Shown: positions 3,538 to 33,213 of the stretch, one piece after another
Numbering within the stretch: position 1 is the stretch's first letter
Layout: every line of letters starts with the position of its first letter
Virus record (IMG/VR): IMGVR_UViG_3300046492_000369
Span: 1-64,000 of that record
Length of the DNA: 64,000 nt
From: a virus
Reading direction: 5' to 3' (one strand)
The notes under the pieces: model-generated
Told to the model about the DNA's origin: nothing
The model's input: the letters and a program-made list of their open reading frames with translations, nothing else
Database searches by the model: none
Translations under genes and position numbers: made by a program

Positions 3538-4275
3538 TTAATACTCTCCCCTGGTAAGAGCAGCCCAGCTCACTGGGAATAGTGGAGCGATGATCTTATC
3601 CACTTGAGCAGCGATCAACTGGGTTTCTTTCTGCGCGTGACCTTCACTACGCTGGTTATACAAGTTAGCCCATGCATACAGCGAGCCAGTGAGTGCCCAA
3701 TGAACTTCCACGCCCTGTGGAAGGATGAAGCGGGCCTGTTCAGGTGCGATACCATCATCAATCATGGCTTCGTAGTGTGTAATCGAATGATTACAGTGTG
3801 AAATGTACCGTTCACGCCATACAGCGCTCTGTGGATGGATTCCCCCACTCCCTTGCTTGACATTAGCCGCTGCTGCACGGAATTCGTCGGGGATATACAA
3901 CACTGGACGGCCACTGATATAGCGTCGAGATTCTTCTGACTCGATCATGCCGATCTTGTGCTTGAAGAGCTGCCTTGCGATCGGTACTGGCGCTTCCATC
4001 ATAATGCTGATGTGCGGATGACCGAACGGAACCCAGTGTTCTGGGATCTTGCGCACGTAAACCAGCAGATCATGCGCTTCATCACGGGTTCCAACCGTAG
4101 TCAGCTTATCAATCAGGTTCTGCCAATCCCCGCTGGCCATGCCCCGGGCGAGGAATCGGATCAGATTGTGGTTTTGTTCGGGTGTGAAGTTCTCGGCCAG
4201 TTTAGCAAAACTCAAACGAGCGAAGTTTGCCACAGCCTGATCATCTAAATAATGCCCTTGATAAATAGCTTGCAT
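3538..4275 (-). CDS. thyX: flavin-dependent thymidylate synthase ThyX
   Basis: A 245-aa FAD-dependent enzyme that methylates dUMP to dTMP using methylene-tetrahydrofolate and NADPH. The ThyX signature is present in a divergent form: KHKIGMIESEESRRY in place of the usual RHR-x7-S-x-RY. The C-terminal active-site region is also present (ARFILPQGVEVHW, then YNQRSEGHAQKE with the conserved Arg and His-Ala-Gln-x-Glu). The start at 4275 has AGGAA a few nt upstream and is divergent from the tail-fibre gene. With nrdJ and dut it forms a nucleotide-supply set. The host-type ThyA fold is not what is seen here. Confidence 0.92.
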   Translation of the reverse strand: MQAIYQGHYLDDQAVANFARLSFAKLAENFTPEQNHNLIRFLARGMASGDWQNLIDKLTTVGTRDEAHDLLVYVRKIPEHWVPFGHPHISIMMEAPVPIARQLFKHKIGMIESEESRRYISGRPVLYIPDEFRAAAANVKQGSGGIHPQSAVWRERYISHCNHSITHYEAMIDDGIAPEQARFILPQGVEVHWALTGSLYAWANLYNQRSEGHAQKETQLIAAQVDKIIAPLFPVSWAALTRGEY

Positions 4276-4338
4276 ACAGGAAATTCCTTTAAAATGGAAG
4301 GGTTAAGCGCACAAATGCGCCCTCTTGAGGAGTTTGGT
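4276..4338. promoter_or_regulatory. divergent intergenic region with hairpin
   Basis: This spacer lies between thyX (minus) and the first tail-fibre gene (plus). It holds a perfect 5-bp hairpin GCGCA-CAAA-TGCGC (4307-4320) and the palindrome AGGAAATTCCT (4278-4288), which includes the thyX ribosome binding site. A GAGGAG site at 4327-4332 serves the plus-strand gene. Promoters for both directions are expected here, but no convincing -35/-10 pair was seen. Confidence 0.45.
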
Positions 4339-6546
4339 ATGACTTGTGAAGGTAATGTCTGCGGTACAGGCGGTTGGGGCGGCCCTAAGCCAGGTGATCC
4401 GAACAATGACAGCATTCTACGGGCTACACCAGCATTCGGTGGTATCGACATCAATTTTACTTACCCAACTGTCAATCCCTATGCGCTGGCTTACACAATG
4501 TTGTACAGGGGCGTCTTACCAGACTTTGCCAACGCTATTCTCATTCAGGATGCCTTGGCTGGCAGCTACTATTTCGATCGGGTAGATCCCGGCACCACTT
4601 ATTACTACTGGATTCAGTTCGTATCGATTAACGGCACTATTGGTGATGTTATTGGCCCTGCATCAGCCCAAGCCAGGGATTCGATCGAACAGACCCTGCG
4701 TGACCTGACTGGCAAGATAGATGCAGGTGTGCTGGCGCAAGCCCTGAAGACAGAGATCGCAAGGATCCCTGAAATCGATGACAAGATCTTTCAGGAGATT
4801 GAAGACCGACTCAGCAGTAATCAAGCTTTGTCCAATGCCATTGCACAGGTACAGAACGTGTCGGATGAGACACTGAGCTATGTACAGCAAGAGATCACCC
4901 AACGGCAGGATGCCGATGGTGTGTTGGCTGAATCGATCAATACCTTGTTCGCCCAGATGGCAGGCAATGCTGCAGCCATCAATGAGGAAAAGCTGGTTCG
5001 GGTCAGCAAGGATGACGCCCTGTCGCAGCGGATTGACACCCTGGCTACATCTTGGGGGCCAGACATTGCTGCTGCTATTGCGATCGAACAGACTGCCCGG
5101 ACCAATGCAGATGGAGCGTTGGCTCAGGACATCACGACCTTATTTACCCGGACGAATGACAATGCAGCAGCCGTCATTGCCGAGCAAACTGCCCGTACTA
5201 CGCATGAAGGCTCGGTAGCCACCACAATTGCTGACTTGTACACCAAGCATGGGGAAGCCCTGTCGGCGGTGGATACGGAACGAACATCCCGTACAAGCGC
5301 TGATAGTGCCCTGGCTTCGGACATTACTACCCTGTTTTCCCGGGTAAGTGGTGCTGATGCGGCGATTCAATCCACTAATCAAGCCATTGTAGATGCTGGT
5401 GTGGCAACAACCAGCCAGATCAACACAATGCGGACCACGATCAATGGCGATATCACGAATGCCATAAATGGGGAAGCTGGTGCCCGTAATGCTGCAATTT
5501 CCTCTGCAGTGCAATCGGAAGCCAATACCCGTTCTGCCGCAGACTCAGCCTTGTCCCAGCAGATTACTACGGCCGAATCGTCCATGGGCAGCAATCTAAC
5601 CCAAGTTCAGACGCTATTGCAGACAAATATCGACACAACCAACGGTAAATTGACTTCAATTGGTGCTTTGTACACGGCTAAGGTCAGTGTAAATGGCTTG
5701 ATTGGTGGTTTCGGTGTCTACAACGATGGTAGTGAAGTCGAAGCAGGGTTTGATGTTGATCGTTTCTGGGTAGGCCGAACTAACGACGACAAGATTAAGC
5801 CATTCATCATCGATAGCGGCACTGTCTACATCAATGAAGCAGTGATCCGGCACCTTGAAGTGGAAAAGATCACCAGTGGTAGTGTTAATTCGGAATGGCG
5901 CATCCGTGGTCTGGGTGGACGGATCGTCATGGACACCGGGGCAGTGATGAAGGTAATTGGTACTGGTTTTGGTGCCAACAAGGATCTCATCGAGTGGTTT
6001 GGTCCCAGTATGCCGATTGAAGCCTGTACGAAAGCCAATGCCACGATTTATGAAGCAATTGATGGTAGTGCCTACTATGGTGGCGCACTCCGGGCAGGTA
6101 CCTTGTACAACGCCCAACGTACTACACAGACTGCTGCTAATGCTCAAGTTCCTCTTGGTCCATTCTGGTCTAACGGTAATCCGAGGGTGCTGGTCGTTAG
6201 CTATACCTTCAACTGGGAGATGTTGAATAACAATGCTGGTTCGACTGGGTACCAATACCAAGGAGGGGATACTTACGCCGATATCCAGCTCTGGAAAGGG
6301 AATACCATGGTGTCTTCCAGCAGAATGACGGGAAGCTATACCATTGATAACGATCTGAGTGATCCAGACAGCGCCAGTATCAGCATTGGTGGTTCTTTCA
6401 CCTTCACGGACACAGGCCCAGCCGGTAACTATTCATACAGCGCTGTTATTGTGTCGCGGAGCCTGGCAAACATCACTCATAGCTCTGGAGCCAACACCTC
6501 TTCAAATATCACGCAATCACTGGGCATTGTGAGTACTGAAGCCTGA
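4339..6546 (+). CDS. tail fibre / tail tip protein with coiled-coil repeats
   Basis: A 735-aa putative host-recognition protein. Residues about 25-100 look like a fibronectin-III-type domain. Residues about 130-420 contain repeated 30-35-residue units (pattern AVxAExxARTxADxALAxDITTLF) predicted to form a trimeric coiled coil. A segment after that (DDKIKPFIIDSGTVYINEAV) resembles the C-terminal stalk of lambda J-type central fibres, followed by a glycine/serine-rich beta C-terminus. The ATG at 4339 is chosen over an in-frame ATG at 4252 because GAGGAG lies 6 nt upstream and the longer form would overlap the thyX start. It is the first gene of the tail module. Confidence 0.8.
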   Translation: MTCEGNVCGTGGWGGPKPGDPNNDSILRATPAFGGIDINFTYPTVNPYALAYTMLYRGVLPDFANAILIQDALAGSYYFDRVDPGTTYYYWIQFVSINGTIGDVIGPASAQARDSIEQTLRDLTGKIDAGVLAQALKTEIARIPEIDDKIFQEIEDRLSSNQALSNAIAQVQNVSDETLSYVQQEITQRQDADGVLAESINTLFAQMAGNAAAINEEKLVRVSKDDALSQRIDTLATSWGPDIAAAIAIEQTARTNADGALAQDITTLFTRTNDNAAAVIAEQTARTTHEGSVATTIADLYTKHGEALSAVDTERTSRTSADSALASDITTLFSRVSGADAAIQSTNQAIVDAGVATTSQINTMRTTINGDITNAINGEAGARNAAISSAVQSEANTRSAADSALSQQITTAESSMGSNLTQVQTLLQTNIDTTNGKLTSIGALYTAKVSVNGLIGGFGVYNDGSEVEAGFDVDRFWVGRTNDDKIKPFIIDSGTVYINEAVIRHLEVEKITSGSVNSEWRIRGLGGRIVMDTGAVMKVIGTGFGANKDLIEWFGPSMPIEACTKANATIYEAIDGSAYYGGALRAGTLYNAQRTTQTAANAQVPLGPFWSNGNPRVLVVSYTFNWEMLNNNAGSTGYQYQGGDTYADIQLWKGNTMVSSSRMTGSYTIDNDLSDPDSASISIGGSFTFTDTGPAGNYSYSAVIVSRSLANITHSSGANTSSNITQSLGIVSTEA

Positions 6547-6570
6547 TTTACATCATTTAACCGCCTAACA

Positions 6571-6602
6571 GTGGACTTGTAGCCAACAAGCCACGGTTTT
6601 CT
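6571..6602 (+). terminator. putative intrinsic terminator after the first tail-fibre gene
   Basis: An imperfect stem GTGG(A)CTTGT/ACAAGCCAC (6571-6580 with 6586-6594) is followed by GGTTTTCT. The bulged A and short U tract make it moderate. Confidence 0.5.
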
Positions 6603-6675
6603 GCGTTAATTAATGAGCACTGCAACGAATTGTTGTGGGACAATAGTGCTTACTGTAAATAAAGCTGGAGCCTGC

Positions 6676-7491
6676 ATGACGCCCGTATCGATGCAATTCC
6701 TTACTTCAACCGGAGAACCCATCGCGCATGCTCCGGTTGAGATCCGGCTCGCCCGCTCCGACTACGATGAAGCCCAGTCAGGCATCATCATGCCCCGACT
6801 GGTCACGGCAACGACGGATGAACAGGGCGAAGCCACGGTGAACCTGACGCCCTGTGACACGATGTATCACGTCACGGTTTATGACACGCTTAGTGATGCA
6901 GCGTTGCATTACGACTTCTATGTACCGACGCTGGATGTACCAGGAACGACGGTACGTCTGCAGGATATCGTGGTGGTCAAGCCCATCTCGCCCAAGAAAT
7001 ACGACGAGACAGCGTTGCTGGCCATCCAAAATGCCAAGGCCAATACGCTTTCGGCAATGCTGTCGGCTGAACAGGCCCGGGATGCCAGCATTACGGCCGC
7101 CAGCGATGCAGCGGACAGTGCTCGCTTAACTATCCCAACCACTTCCGCACTACCTCCGGACAATCCCCTGGAAAACCAAGAGTGGATCAACACGACCAAT
7201 GGCAAGCGCTTCAACTGGTTGGTTACGAATGGTCATGGGGCGTGGGTTGAAACCTACGCTTCCGTGGTCGTCAACACTCCTGATGCGGCAGCCATTCCGG
7301 CAGGTGTCGATGCGGAAGAAGTGGTTGCCATCGTTACGGAACAAGGAGTGCAAGTCACCGATCTGGAACTGGTGCAGTCCTTGGCTTCCACCGACATCCT
7401 GACCATTACCCAGCAAGATGGAGTAGAACGCCGGGTTACATTGGCAGAACTGGCTGCCATGATCGATCAGATCAATCGCGGTATCGCTTAA
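6676..7491 (+). CDS. virion/tail-module protein with N-terminal Ig-like domain
   Basis: A 271-aa protein of the tail module. The N-terminal ~100 residues (STGEPIAHAPVEIRL, TDEQGEATVNLTP, TMYHVTVYD) have the pattern of a bacterial Ig-like/carboxypeptidase-regulatory beta sandwich. An alanine-rich helical stretch (KANTLSAMLSAEQARDASI) follows, then a region with NTTNGKRFNWLVTNGHGAWVE. The start at 6676 is preferred because GGAG lies 5 nt upstream; an in-frame ATG at 6613 would add 21 residues (including a CC pair) but has no ribosome binding site. It probably links fibre proteins to the tail; function is inferred from position. Confidence 0.65.
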   Translation: MTPVSMQFLTSTGEPIAHAPVEIRLARSDYDEAQSGIIMPRLVTATTDEQGEATVNLTPCDTMYHVTVYDTLSDAALHYDFYVPTLDVPGTTVRLQDIVVVKPISPKKYDETALLAIQNAKANTLSAMLSAEQARDASITAASDAADSARLTIPTTSALPPDNPLENQEWINTTNGKRFNWLVTNGHGAWVETYASVVVNTPDAAAIPAGVDAEEVVAIVTEQGVQVTDLELVQSLASTDILTITQQDGVERRVTLAELAAMIDQINRGIA

Positions 7492-26158: not shown

Positions 26159-27325
26159 CTATTCGGTGTGGGTGTTGTAGTAGATAATTTTCCCGAACGG
26201 GGCAGTCCAGTCCGGGTTATCGTGGATCATCCACAGGATGTTGGTGTTACAGGTATCCCTGTCGTGATAGAAGCCACCATCAGTAAAGATCATGGCCACC
26301 TTCGGCTTGGTCTTCTCGATATGGTCCAATACATCGGTGATGACAGTACCACCCCGGCCATGGAACTTCACATTGGCCAAGTCCACGACGTTACGCACCG
26401 GAGTGATCGACTTGATGCAGGTGTCGAACTGTCCCAGCTCGATCTTTTTGGGCTTCATCATGCGCAGGATACCGTTGATCTCGGAGACGAAGCGTTGGAA
26501 GTCCTCATCGGTTTCCGAACCAGAGATATCCACCCATGCCTGGAAGTCCACCATGGCCCCTTCGCTCCACAGCGATGGAAGATAGTGATCTGGCATGAAA
26601 CGACGGTTGGGTCGCTTCCAGCTATAGTCGAACTTGCCCAAGCTTTTGAGCCACTTGCGCAGAATGGTCTGCCATGGCAACTTGGGGTCGAGCAGCTTGT
26701 CGAGGTACAGTTCGATCTCGCCAGGAATGGCTCCTGGCTTTTCATTGGCCATGCGGGAATGGGTAATGGCCCGAACCAAGATGTCATCGAGCGATCGCTT
26801 CAAATCATCGGCAGGCATCTTGTCGCCTTGCCCTTCACCGTCACCTTCCCCGGGTTCACGCAGGTCCGGCATGCCATTTTGCGGTTGCGGTGCCCCTTGC
26901 TGTTGTTCCTCCTGCAGGAGCTTGTACACTTCTTCGGTGCTCATGCCCTTGAAACGGTCATCGGCCAGTCGCATGGCAGGCAGCTTGAAGCCACGTTCCA
27001 GCAAGTACAGGTTGATAACATGATCGGCTGCAATGTTGAACAGGTTACGGTCCCGGGTACCTAGACGCACCGTATGCATGTAGGCCACATGGCAGCACTC
27101 GTGCACCAACACACCGATCCGTTCTTCTGGCCTCAGGCTCAGGAAGAAGTTACGGTTGAACCCCAGCTTCAGTCCCGTGGTCCATGCGGTTGGGTGGGCA
27201 TCATCCCAGACGAACTTCATGCTGAACAGGATGGTAGTAAAGAAGTGGGTTTCCGGGTGCTGCATCAGGCCGATCTTGGCCTTGTCCAGCAGCTTGTTCA
27301 GCTGGGCTTGATCAATGGTTTGCAT
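26159..27325 (-). CDS. VWA protein with HExxH motif (N4 gp25-like)
   Basis: A 388-aa protein. The N-terminal half has a zinc-metallopeptidase motif VHECCHVAYMH (about residues 73-83). A linker rich in Glu/Gln/Gly follows (EEQQQGAPQPQ, PGEGDGEGQGD). The C-terminal von Willebrand A domain has MIDAS elements AWVDISGSETD, GRGGT and IFTDGG. This is the VWA partner of a MoxR-type AAA ATPase (here the intron-split gene at 31.3-33.2 kb). MoxR/VWA pairs act as chaperone-like complexes; the substrate in N4-like phages is not known. Confidence 0.85.
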   Translation of the reverse strand: MQTIDQAQLNKLLDKAKIGLMQHPETHFFTTILFSMKFVWDDAHPTAWTTGLKLGFNRNFFLSLRPEERIGVLVHECCHVAYMHTVRLGTRDRNLFNIAADHVINLYLLERGFKLPAMRLADDRFKGMSTEEVYKLLQEEQQQGAPQPQNGMPDLREPGEGDGEGQGDKMPADDLKRSLDDILVRAITHSRMANEKPGAIPGEIELYLDKLLDPKLPWQTILRKWLKSLGKFDYSWKRPNRRFMPDHYLPSLWSEGAMVDFQAWVDISGSETDEDFQRFVSEINGILRMMKPKKIELGQFDTCIKSITPVRNVVDLANVKFHGRGGTVITDVLDHIEKTKPKVAMIFTDGGFYHDRDTCNTNILWMIHDNPDWTAPFGKIIYYNTHTE

Positions 27326-28852: not shown

Positions 28853-29221
28853 CTACCCGTTAAGAATGGCTGTGACGTGGACGACCTTCGAGATGATCAG
28901 GCCTACTCCGGCAATACGGTGCTGATAATTGGCATCCATGCAGCGGATATGCGCTAGTACTGCTTTGTGCAGCGACTGACCATCATTGATGAAGCCAGAA
29001 TTGAAATCGACTTGGCCGGGTGGTGGGGGTTCTCCCACGTACACGGCTTCAGCAATCCGGGTGTAGATGTTCCCATCCCAGAATTCAGTGGGGATCTCAT
29101 CGATCGGTGGTAGCAACCTCTGTGTACCTCGCCAGAATTCCAGCTCGGTGATCGAATCCAAATCAGCTTGGGTGATATTCCATGGCTTAGGGGGTTCAGG
29201 TGCTTTCTTCTTGGCTTTCAT
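28853..29221 (-). CDS. hypothetical protein
   Basis: A 122-aa protein with a basic N-terminus (KAKKKAPEPPKPWN), a central acidic section and a hydrophobic C-terminus (HRIAGVGLIISKVVHVTAIL). The ATG overlaps the stop of the next upstream gene (ATGA). No family recognised. Confidence 0.6.
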   Translation of the reverse strand: MKAKKKAPEPPKPWNITQADLDSITELEFWRGTQRLLPPIDEIPTEFWDGNIYTRIAEAVYVGEPPPPGQVDFNSGFINDGQSLHKAVLAHIRCMDANYQHRIAGVGLIISKVVHVTAILNG

Positions 29222-29901
29222 GAGTCATCCTTACGTGCGAGCTGGGCGGCACGCTCTGATACCTTTGGGTCAAGCGCGATTTCTTCTCGCCATGCGATCA
29301 AACGAGCTAGCGATCCCCGTGCATCGTTCTCGTCCCAAGGGAGTTCACCCGACACTACGCAGGCATCCGTTACGGCGTCATACCACTGCTTATAGCGCGC
29401 GAGCTGGGCTTGAACTTGAGCCAACGCCTTTTCGGATTCTGCTGCATGCCGTTGCTCATACTCCTTGGCCTGATGTGCACTGGCTAACTGGGCGCGCAGG
29501 TCGGCAGCTGTCTGCTCTAGCTCGATGCAATACAAGCTGGTCGCCTTCGAGATCGGACAGGCTTGCTGCTGGGCGCTATATGCTGCGATGGCGTCGAGGG
29601 CGTCGAGGGCGTACTGGCGCATCTGACGTGCGGTGTAGTACGGATCGCCTGCTTTCCCGAATACGCTTGTAAAGCGCAGCGTGTGGTCCGGCAGCGGCGG
29701 CAGTCCCTCGTCGCTCCCATGCGCAGCAACAGCGGAGGATGGGGCGGTGCGGCGGGCGGCTTGCCATGCTTCCCATAACTCGCAAACGTAATGATCCGTG
29801 TACGAGTCCCCTTCGCGTTCAGATTTCGGGCCAACCCTGTCATTCAGGCCAAGCCACGCCTCAAACGCTGCCCGCTCGGCTTCGATGTTCAGATTGCTCA
29901 T
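29218..29901 (-). CDS. Ead/Ea22-like accessory phage protein
   Basis: A 227-aa protein beginning NIEAERAAFEAWLG and continuing with CELWEAWQAARR, the pattern of Ead/Ea22-like accessory proteins in many lambdoid and Burkholderia phages. A coiled-coil middle (TAADLRAQLASAHQAKEYE, SEKALAQVQAQLARY) follows, with VVSGELPWDEND at the end. The start at 29901 has GAAAGGACAGCA upstream; the longer frame overlaps a neighbouring gene. Function unknown. The GC-rich codon use differs by eye from the phage core. Confidence 0.65.
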   Translation of the reverse strand: MSNLNIEAERAAFEAWLGLNDRVGPKSEREGDSYTDHYVCELWEAWQAARRTAPSSAVAAHGSDEGLPPLPDHTLRFTSVFGKAGDPYYTARQMRQYALDALDAIAAYSAQQQACPISKATSLYCIELEQTAADLRAQLASAHQAKEYEQRHAAESEKALAQVQAQLARYKQWYDAVTDACVVSGELPWDENDARGSLARLIAWREEIALDPKVSERAAQLARKDDS

Positions 29902-30248
29902 TGCTGTCCTTTCTCGCCCGACTCCGGGGCGGGGGTTCTCTGCTGATTCATTGCCGCCAGAATCTCGTCCTGGCGGGCCTTCATGAAGTCCGCGATGGTC
30001 TGCTGGATGTCCAGAAACTCGCACTTGGTCCGGCTGTGCTGCAATGTGTAGCCGCGCCGCGCCATGAACCACAGGAACACATCGATGGTGTAGATGTGTG
30101 CGTCACGCCAAGTGATGGCCTTAGTGCCGTCGTGCGCATGGACCAGTCCGTGGATCGTCTTGAACAGGTCTTTCTGGTCGTGGAAGTCGCGCATGAACTC
30201 CGGGAGGTATTCAGCGGAATCCAGCCACGCCCGCAGGTCGCGCGTCAC
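29898..30248 (-). CDS. hypothetical accessory protein (GTG start)
   Basis: A 116-aa protein (DLRAWLDSAEYLPEFMRDFH, WRDAHIYTIDVFLWFMARRG). The GTG at 30248 overlaps the stop of the upstream gene (GTGA), and its own stop overlaps the following ATG. No family recognised with confidence; part of the GC-rich module. Confidence 0.6.
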   Translation of the reverse strand: MTRDLRAWLDSAEYLPEFMRDFHDQKDLFKTIHGLVHAHDGTKAITWRDAHIYTIDVFLWFMARRGYTLQHSRTKCEFLDIQQTIADFMKARQDEILAAMNQQRTPAPESGEKGQQ

Positions 30249-31030
30249 TTCGCACCGCCTTCCTGACCTGCTGCGCCCACAGCGGCGGCTCTGACCCCGC
30301 TGAGCAAACGCGCGTTGAGGTAGCCGTTGGCATCCTTGACCCGTACAAACACACGGTGCGCGTCCTTCTCGCCGTCTTTCACCTGATGCGACAGCGCGCC
30401 CCATACGTAGTAGCCGACGACGGTATGCTCGACCCATGCGTCTTGGCGAGCGAGGTGGATCAGCACTTTCGACCCAACTGGCGGCAGCAAGTCGCCCTCT
30501 ACCGGCTCCACTTCACCCGCATTGGCGGCAGCAGGCGCAGGGGCGGCTCGCTGGGCGAGCACTTCGCGCGCAAACTTCAGGATTGCATTCAATGGACCGC
30601 CGAAACTCAACCAACGGCTCTGTACCCGGTTGAAAATCTGCACAATCTTTTCGTCGGTCACTACTTCTATATGCTGTGCAGCCGAAGGGTTGGGGGATGG
30701 GGCGACGAACTTAGTAACTGCCTCGCGCACCTTCCGTGCTACGTCTTCACCTTTACCGATATAGCGCCATACTTCAGAGTTTCCTTCGCGGACAAGGCTC
30801 TGTGAAAAACTAGTAGTATCCAGTTCTTCAGCAACCATGCGAAGGATTTCATAAAGCTCGCGCGCTGCCGTGGTGGCCGCTTGCTGTGCAGTAGTGGCGC
30901 GGCGCGCGAGGGCGATCATTTCACGCAATTTGTCTGACGCACTGTACTGAAAGTTACCTTCCAACTGATCAGCGATTGCTTCCAGCTTGTCCAGGTCGAT
31001 GCCTCCCGGTTCGGTAGTGTGTTTGCTCAT
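30245..31030 (-). CDS. hypothetical accessory protein
   Basis: A 261-aa protein with helical N-terminus (DKLREMIALARRATTAQQAAT), a middle segment KIVQIFNRVQSRWLSFGGPL, and a C-terminal region (GSKVLIHLARQDAWVEHTVVGYYVWG) resembling the small beta domains of phage accessory proteins. GAGGAATAACACC precedes the ATG at 31030. Part of the GC-rich module; function unknown. Confidence 0.65.
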   Translation of the reverse strand: MSKHTTEPGGIDLDKLEAIADQLEGNFQYSASDKLREMIALARRATTAQQAATTAARELYEILRMVAEELDTTSFSQSLVREGNSEVWRYIGKGEDVARKVREAVTKFVAPSPNPSAAQHIEVVTDEKIVQIFNRVQSRWLSFGGPLNAILKFAREVLAQRAAPAPAAANAGEVEPVEGDLLPPVGSKVLIHLARQDAWVEHTVVGYYVWGALSHQVKDGEKDAHRVFVRVKDANGYLNARLLSGVRAAAVGAAGQEGGAK

Positions 31031-31034
31031 GGTG

Positions 31035-31244
31035 TTATTCCTCGCTGGCTTTCTCGGTGTTGCTGGCGGCGGTGCGCCGGACTTCGCGCTCGATGGCGCG
31101 GGCAAATTTGAGCCATCCGGGCGGTAGTCGCTTCGGAACTTCGTGCGTGATTGAGCCGAGCGCGGCCAAAATTTGCTCGTCGGTCAGCTCGCCCGGTACC
31201 TCTGCGCTCTGCTGCGGTGCTGGTGGGACAGGTGTTGTCATCAC
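31035..31244 (-). CDS. hypothetical accessory protein
   Basis: A 69-aa protein. ELTDEQILAAL and WLKFARAIEREVRR form a motif pair repeatedly seen in accessory proteins of Burkholderia and enteric phages. ATG-ATG start (31244 or 31241), with AAAGGAAC upstream. It closes the GC-rich module and lies 22 nt from exon 2 of the gp24-like gene. Function unknown. Confidence 0.6.
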   Translation of the reverse strand: MMTTPVPPAPQQSAEVPGELTDEQILAALGSITHEVPKRLPPGWLKFARAIEREVRRTAASNTEKASEE

Positions 31245-31266: not shown

Positions 31267-32208
31267 TTAAAACAAGGCTTCAGCATGCATACCCAACCAC
31301 TTCTGCATGTCTGCATCGTTGACCAGCTCTTTGTTGCGACCCAGCACCATCCTTACGCACACCACTTGGAATTCCAGTGGCAGGCGCTTGATGTACTTCA
31401 TCAGTGGGTTGATGTTCACCTTGTTGATCTTGTCCGCAATGCTACCGGACAGAGCAAACAGGATGCTTGGCTCACCTGGTACCTGGATCGATTCAGGATT
31501 GGCCATGATCTCGGCTACCGTGGGCAACTGGTCGAAGATCTTGCAGTAGCTGAGAAATTCCCGTGCCACGCCTTCGGACAGGGTACCAGCCAACAGCGGC
31601 AGCATGTCGGCGTCGTTGGCGTCCATGATCTTCAGGAAGCTATCCGCAAATTCCCATGTCCGTGGCGAAGCATAGGTACGATCCGAGTGGTCTGGCTTGA
31701 AGGTGTACAACAACGTAGGTCGGAACTCCATGAAGCTGATGATGCGGTGGTCAAGACCAGTAGCAGACGCCCACTGTACCCATTCAACAGGATTAACCAC
31801 CATTTCCATGTGCACGATACGCGACTGCAGTGCAGTGCTCATCTGCTCGACGATGGCTCCATCGGTTTCTAGGTTACCAGCACAGACTACCGCCACATTC
31901 TTATGCAGGTTGTACTTGCCCACCATCCGATCGAGCACGACCTTGTAAGACGCGGCTTGAACGGCGACCGAAGCACTGTTGAACTCATCCAGGAACAGCA
32001 ACCAACCATTATAAGCTTGGCCATTTTCTGGATTAATAGGTAATGAGTCACCTTCAATAGGAAAAGTGTCCATTGGCAAATACCCGGCACGATTACCTTG
32101 TATATTAGGAAATCCGAGGATATCTGTAGGGTCACATTGAGAAAGACGTAAATCAATCAATTTAAGATTATATTCACGCGCTATTTGATGCACGATTCCT
32201 GACTTACC
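31267..32208 (-). CDS. MoxR-type AAA+ ATPase (N4 gp24-like), exon 2
   Basis: This is the second exon (313 residues) of a 354-aa protein. It starts with GKSGIVHQIAREYN, completing the Walker A motif begun in exon 1. It contains a Walker B (GWLLFLDEFNSA), arginine-finger-type segments (RIVHMEMVVNP) and the AAA lid (RTYASPRTWEFADSF). Without splicing the exon has no natural ATG; only a TTG at 32220 inside the intron would open it. It is the AAA partner of the VWA protein at 26.2-27.3 kb and belongs to the MoxR/AAA_5 group. Confidence 0.9.
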   Translation of the reverse strand, partial: GKSGIVHQIAREYNLKLIDLRLSQCDPTDILGFPNIQGNRAGYLPMDTFPIEGDSLPINPENGQAYNGWLLFLDEFNSASVAVQAASYKVVLDRMVGKYNLHKNVAVVCAGNLETDGAIVEQMSTALQSRIVHMEMVVNPVEWVQWASATGLDHRIISFMEFRPTLLYTFKPDHSDRTYASPRTWEFADSFLKIMDANDADMLPLLAGTLSEGVAREFLSYCKIFDQLPTVAEIMANPESIQVPGEPSILFALSGSIADKINKVNINPLMKYIKRLPLEFQVVCVRMVLGRNKELVNDADMQKWLGMHAEALF

Positions 32209-33090
32209 CTTGGTATTCAAGAGAGTACGTTACCCCCCTCTCCGCTATTAAGCTGCTCATGCTTTCGCATGAGAATAGACTATATCTTCATCTTATACTG
32301 ACATGGCCGACACATAATGTTGGTCTGTCTCAGCGTCGAAGAATCAGTTCTGCATACAAGTTTTGTAGGGCAATTAGAGCAATAAAATTCTACAAAATTA
32401 CGTGGATTTTCATTGATCACTCGAATAAAATTCAAGCCTAATTTTTCCCTGAAAAATTTCTCTGTTACAGCAAACTTGGCAGCACTTGCTGCTTTACTGG
32501 CATTCAGATAGGGTGTTTTACCCATACTAATCGCGTGTAATTGATTTCCTGATTTTGTAGTCCATTCCAGATTGTCTTTCCAATCATGGCCAGGAACCAA
32601 ATCCTTGTGATTTACTTCCACATCATCTGGTCCTTTGACCAGATAAATTTCAGCAACCATTCGGTGTACAAAAAATCGTTCAGTTTTACCTTGTATTGAC
32701 AGAGTAACCCGACGATAGCCTTTTGGCATTACATCGGCTTTTAGTGCAGTACTTTTTCCTTTTCGATATACATTCCCATCTTCTGATACCAGATAAGGCG
32801 TATTTCTGAATTGACGCATATTTTACCTTTTAAGGAGAACCACATACATGGTAGACCTGTTGAGGTAAAAAGTAAAGAGCTTCCCATTTCCACCCACTTG
32901 GGTGTACGGCTTTCGCCTAGTCGTTGAACGTTCACCTATACGGTGCTTCGCTGCTGATTGCCCAATTCTCATACTTTTCAAGCCTTGGCTTTGTCTTTCG
33001 ACGCGCAGTGGCAATGAGACTATCAGGAGTTTCCAGCAATTAGAGAAGTTTGTTTTGACACCTCACGGTGAAAGCTATCTAGTAGAGTCA
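32209..33090 (-). ncRNA. group I self-splicing intron in the gp24-like ATPase gene
   Basis: This 882-nt intron interrupts the P-loop codons. The exon 1 end AGCTATT (33097-33091) pairs with GATAGCT (33079-33073), giving P1 with the diagnostic U-G wobble at the splice site. The core elements are in order: P (AATTGCTGGAAACTCC, 33041-33026), Q (AATCAGCAGCGAAGC, 32959-32945), R (CGTTCAACGACTAGGCG, 32930-32914) and S (AAGATATAGTCTA, 32288-32276); R GACTA pairs with S TAGTC (P7). A P9 hairpin CTCATGC-GAAA-GCATGAG (32272-32255) follows. The last nucleotide is G (32209). The HNH gene lies between R and S, in the P8 loop. Confidence 0.95.
32280..32819 (-). CDS. intron-encoded HNH homing endonuclease
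   Basis: A 179-aa endonuclease. RKGKSTALKADVMPKGYRR at the N-terminus and the HNH core HRMVAEIYLVKG, EVNHKDLVPGHDW and DNLEWTTKSGNQLHA are typical of phage group I intron nucleases. The C-terminus has a CSNC/CRPC pair (EFYCSNCPT, IMCRPCQY), suggesting a zinc finger. It would cut intronless alleles at the P-loop site to spread the intron. Its TAG stop (32282-32280) lies inside the S element of the intron. AAGGAGAACC upstream is at some distance, so the start is reasonable but not certain. Confidence 0.9.
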   Translation of the reverse strand: MRQFRNTPYLVSEDGNVYRKGKSTALKADVMPKGYRRVTLSIQGKTERFFVHRMVAEIYLVKGPDDVEVNHKDLVPGHDWKDNLEWTTKSGNQLHAISMGKTPYLNASKAASAAKFAVTEKFFREKLGLNFIRVINENPRNFVEFYCSNCPTKLVCRTDSSTLRQTNIMCRPCQYKMKI

Positions 33091-33213
33091 AATAGCTGGT
33101 GAGCCATGAATCATGGCCACACGCTTAGCCTTGATGCAGGCCGTGACCATGCGGATGGCCTGACTGATGGTGACTTTCAGGGTCTGTTGTACTTCGTTGT
33201 CGTTCTTTGCCAT
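33091..33213 (-). CDS. MoxR-type AAA+ ATPase (N4 gp24-like), exon 1
   Basis: Exon 1 encodes the first 41 residues, ending VAMIHGSPAI, from an ATG at 33213. Without splicing the reading frame hits TGA immediately after ATT. Joined to exon 2 it yields the Walker A GSPAIGKS (residues 37-44). ACGAAAG upstream gives a modest ribosome binding site. The total spliced product is 354 aa. Confidence 0.9.

Follow-up and report, generated by a model that had tools for sequence, protein, structure and literature searches.

The gene for a gp24-like AAA/MoxR-type ATPase in this phage DNA is split by a group I intron between the isoleucine and glycine codons of its Walker A motif, a placement supported by the agreement of a covariance model, contiguous intronless homologues and related introns in the identical position in two lineages of cultured phages. 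The element is very probably a mobile (homing) intron, which its predicted structure would assign to the group IA type, and it is of the ordinary self-splicing kind at a known homing site, not a new kind of system. The window, by which we mean the whole 64-kb stretch analyzed here, is part of a record that is a 77-kb virus contig. Given that neighboring genes matched the RNAP2, DNA polymerase and rIIA families, and that the relatives of gp24 were mostly found in Schitoviridae phages, we take the source to be an N4-like phage.

The split gene lies on the minus strand. Exon 1 (33091..33213) comprises codons 1-41, with the alignments to homologues L006-L008 and L014 beginning at residue 1, and ends in HGSPAI, encoded by ...CAT GGC TCA CCA GCT ATT. 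It is directly followed by an in-frame TGA and an intron of 882 nt (32209..33090), with the termini TGACTC...ACCAAG and hence a G as its last nucleotide. Exon 2 (31267..32208) starts with GGT AAG TCA (GKS) and reads GKSGIVHQ... to the stop codon. Removal of 33090-32209 joins the exons into one 354-aa ORF with the Walker A motif GSPAI|GKS intact. This spliced product matched PHROG_1297 (ATPase) over residues 8-349 (E 2.3e-124), and its match to the Pfam AAA model fell slightly under the cut-off. The exon and intron coordinates given in a preliminary description of this DNA proved exact to the base, and the spliced frame restores GSPAIGKS as it had stated. However, its further claim that the intron interrupts the most conserved site of the protein was not fully borne out: Walker A belongs to the most conserved parts, but its 10-residue window ranked 16th of 325 in conservation, behind the more conserved Walker B region. 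Its observation that production of the ATPase depends on splicing holds, but is less remarkable than implied, since any intron within a coding gene makes its product depend on splicing, and conserved sites are in any case preferred by group I introns and inteins. The case is made less exceptional still by a 2013 paper, in which a split of gp24 by an HNH gene had already been reported (PMC3670811).

A covariance search, which had been proposed as the test of the group I claim, was passed: the Rfam model RF00028 matched 33102-32256 on the minus strand with 58.8 bits (cut-off 50, E 2.3e-12). No other Rfam match at E<=1 and no second intron was found in the 64-kb window. All 7 of 7 pairs of the P1 helix, previously described with a terminal U-G, were recovered; it is formed at 33073..33097 by the exon sequence AGCUAUU (33097-33091) and the internal guide sequence GAUAGCU (33079-33073), with the U.G at the 5' splice site. 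The pairing check likewise placed P10 between UACU (33084-33081) and GGUA of exon 2 (32208-32205), and the covariance match and fold together placed a P2 hairpin, CACC/GGUG, at 33059..33070. The covariance match combined with the pairing check delineated a catalytic core at 32880..33048, consisting of P3 (33048-33043/32885-32880), P4 (33038-33034/32956-32952), the 5' strand of P7 (32922-32918), P7.1 (32917-32908) and P7.2 (32904-32891), all on the minus strand. It is completed at 32256..32282 by the 3' strand of P7, UAGUC (32282-32278), and the P9 hairpin (32273-32256). The group I core of the preliminary description, with its conserved P, Q, R and S elements, is thereby reproduced, with P3, P4, P7, P7.1, P7.2 and P9 all pairing. 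The presence of P7.1 and P7.2 between P7 and P3 is what we take to place the gp24 intron in group IA. It should be noted that the minimum-energy fold of the intron is ordinary by itself (z -1.5), and so the case for a group I intron rests on the covariance model and on comparison. In the latter, the pairing of P1, P7.1, P7.2 and P9 was seen to be kept through two-sided changes among the window intron and the same-site introns of phages Pollock and VCO139, with P1 in the three taking the forms AGCUAUU/GAUAGCU, GGGUAUU/GAUACCC and GGUGUU/GACACC.

The intron also carries an intact ORF of 179 aa (32280..32819, minus strand), absent from the preliminary description, for a predicted HNH homing endonuclease. 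The ORF is placed in the P8 loop, with its final codons overlapping J8/7 and the 3' strand of P7, and AAGG at 32826..32829 could serve as its ribosome-binding site. The HNH motif, VHR...VNHKD...NLEW, is intact and a CxxC segment is present at the C-terminus. The protein matched PHROG_59 (E 4.1e-24) and, over residues 9-116, I-HmuI (PDB 1U3E, E 1.7e-9); its match to Pfam HNH_3 was under the cut-off (18.6 vs 24.8 bits). I-HmuI, from the SPO1 DNA polymerase intron, is likewise an intron-encoded HNH endonuclease and homologous to the window enzyme, but differs from it in host gene and C-terminus. In the phage collection the only near-full-length relatives were the enzymes of the gp24 introns of VCO139, JA-1 and JSF3 (30% over 99%), the alignment with that of VCO139 spanning 184 positions at 31.5% identity (E 3e-19). 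As read from the sequence, then, the ribozyme core is complete, the splice sites match and the HNH ORF is intact, and by comparison with the named families the element may be expected to undergo splicing, to cleave its target and to home.

A group I intron occupies the identical codon junction in VCO139 (GSPGV|GKSKM) and in Pollock (GSPGI|GKSAI), and JA-1 and JSF3 share the intron of VCO139. The Vibrio phages VCO139, JA-1 and JSF3 (Schitoviridae, Pacinivirus) agree with the window in the gene, in the Walker A junction and in a stop codon after exon 1, and their P8-loop HNH endonuclease is a full-length homologue (~30%) of that of the window; they differ in being of another host lineage, with a core just 61% identical to that of the window. 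A 2013 Virology Journal paper described the homologues of gp24, DNAP and gp43 in these phages as interrupted by HNH genes, which "may be carried on an intron" (PMC3670811); its passages on these genes suggest an intron but do not place the split in Walker A. In Escherichia phage Pollock (KM236242), whose announcement mentions a DNA polymerase intron only (PMC4319500), the gene and codon junction are those of the window and the core is 73% identical, but unlike that of the window the gp24 intron has no endonuclease ORF. Its P8 loop (L003 3240-3330) reads GLCRKCSKDEDIV, which lines up with the end of the VCO139 endonuclease, where VCO139 has GICNSCAKEQDIV. This suggests that GLCRKCSKDEDIV could be the C-terminal remnant of a deleted homing endonuclease, with the qualification that the likeness of the two P8 loops is partly due to their shared ribozyme core. 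Comparison with intronless gp24 homologues, also proposed earlier, gave the expected result, in that the gene is contiguous across the insertion site in 80 IMG/VR gp24 loci (~40-67% identity), none of which has an intron there wherever the site is covered. Diverged relatives thus carry related introns at one and the same site, with a patchy distribution, the pattern by which a mobile intron is recognized. A search of IMG/VR with two degenerate DNA patterns for further same-site introns returned only VCO139 and Pollock. The same 5' boundary pattern gave three chance matches in GTDB genomes, without a gp24 relative or a group I intron.

On the basis of these features we propose that the ATPase pre-mRNA would self-splice with GTP, with exon 1 being released after U33091 of P1 and the joining at ATT|GGT restoring Walker A. 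The endonuclease would make a cut or nick at the P-loop codons of gp24 alleles that lack the intron, and repair by recombination would copy the intron together with flanking exon DNA into them. The target site was probably picked because the P-loop codons are conserved, and not for regulation of the ATPase. Co-conversion of the exon DNA beside the intron is a known consequence of homing and is often asymmetric (PMC2988022), and composition points to such an event here. Along gp24, GC3 is 0.65-0.85 in exon 1, drops to 0.15-0.35 over the opening ~200 nt of exon 2 and recovers to ~0.7 thereafter, the best-fit low segment being codons 35-109 (GC3 0.21 vs 0.70 elsewhere). By this segmentation the tract covers 32005..32208 at the start of exon 2 and the final ~20 nt of exon 1 (33111-33091), on the minus strand, and so begins near the junction and reaches ~204 nt into exon 2. 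The log-likelihood gain of the tract was 29.2, whereas none of 809 shuffles exceeded 13.0, and the dip is the strongest among the genes of the window (23.4 vs 12.1 for the next gene). The difference in GC3 between tract and rest was -0.39, vs a mean of 0.00 (sd 0.066) in 69 intronless homologues, among which, as among the other genes of the window, no comparable tract was found. We infer that the tract, lying mostly toward exon 2, is a foreign low-GC co-conversion tract left by homing. Neither blastn nor nearest-neighbor identity found a donor phage for it, and the sequences nearest to it are for the most part those nearest to the remainder of gp24.

That the low GC3 instead reflects selection for exon sequences that fold weakly near the splice site is a thought favored by the start of the tract near the junction, but we consider it unlikely, as the tract reaches ~204 nt downstream and ends sharply; furthermore, in the intron-split RNAP2 gene of YH6, the one control used, GC3 is 0.75 over the 60 nt that open exon 2 and 0.45 over the 60 nt that close exon 1.

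The closest ribozyme core is that of the YH6 RNAP2 (gp16) intron, which is 84.8% identical over 171 nt and 81% in the core alignment. This intron, found in the Pseudomonas Litunavirus phages YH6, LP14, Pa_WF01 and PAP02, thus offers the nearest core but in a different gene, and its ORF is GIY-YIG-like and follows P9, whereas that of the window is of the HNH type and lies in the P8 loop. The RNAP2 gene present in the window gave an end-to-end match to its family. In a tree of 11 intron cores neither a single clade of the same-site introns (p-AU 0.24) nor a grouping of the window intron with the RNAP2 introns (0.26) was rejected; an earlier core tree of 14 rows was discarded, as it included rows that were badly cut or long, and the pairwise identities (61%, 73%, 81%) are still quoted here. 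A composite history is conceivable, in which an RNAP2-type core was combined with a Vibrio-type gp24-site endonuclease and recently homed from a low-GC phage, the endonuclease doubling as a weapon against co-infecting phages whose gp24 P-loops lack the intron. An intron endonuclease of PhiPA3 has been shown to act as a weapon against co-infecting phages (PMC11620839), but as a whole we regard this scenario as quite improbable for the window.

The in-frame stop after exon 1, seen in all three same-site introns (TGA in the window and Pollock, TAA in VCO139), might be taken to mean that the intron is fixed or regulatory, with splicing acting as a GTP- or translation-sensitive switch that times ATPase production, and an on-switch role has been proposed for phage introns of Bastillevirinae (PMC11878797). 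However, such stop codons are common in bacterial and phage group I introns (PMC3984707), most gp24 homologues are intronless, so that the gene works without the intron, and the intact endonuclease and patchy distribution suit a selfish element, making a switch very improbable. Least probable of all is a dead ribozyme or pseudogene, with the exons being remnants or translated apart as two polypeptides: an in-frame TTG at 32220 could start a 317-aa exon 2 ORF, but every core helix pairs, the internal guide sequence fits a diverged exon sequence, both exons are conserved, and a protein started at the TTG would be missing half of Walker A.

A homing intron at this position has a parallel in the P-loop inteins, such as the archaeal VMA-b, which are likewise mobile elements with an endonuclease in the P-loop codons of an ATPase (PMC8966425), but use protein splicing where the gp24 intron would use RNA splicing. 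That mobile introns and inteins occur at conserved codons, P-loops among them, is already established. What the window adds is a third lineage for the homing site in N4-like gp24, at its Walker A codons, for which forms with an intact endonuclease and without an ORF are now at hand, plus an exon tract possibly marking homing across phages, so that gp24 offers a convenient natural series in which to follow the homing cycle.

A second insertion in gp24, at QAAA|YK, is present in the Vibrio phages and in Pollock (L089 ~6518-7241 in VCO139 and L003 ~3641-4481 in Pollock) and carries an HNH ORF; it marks a second shared site near another conserved stretch, with an Rfam match there under the cut-off. 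Downstream of gp24 in the window, a cluster of small Ala/Arg-rich ORFs (28853-31244), which looks like inserted accessory DNA, separates it from a gene at 26159-27325. The product of the latter matched phrog_1314 (E 3.9e-117), labelled HNH endonuclease; the label is doubtful, and going by its position the protein may instead be gp25-like.
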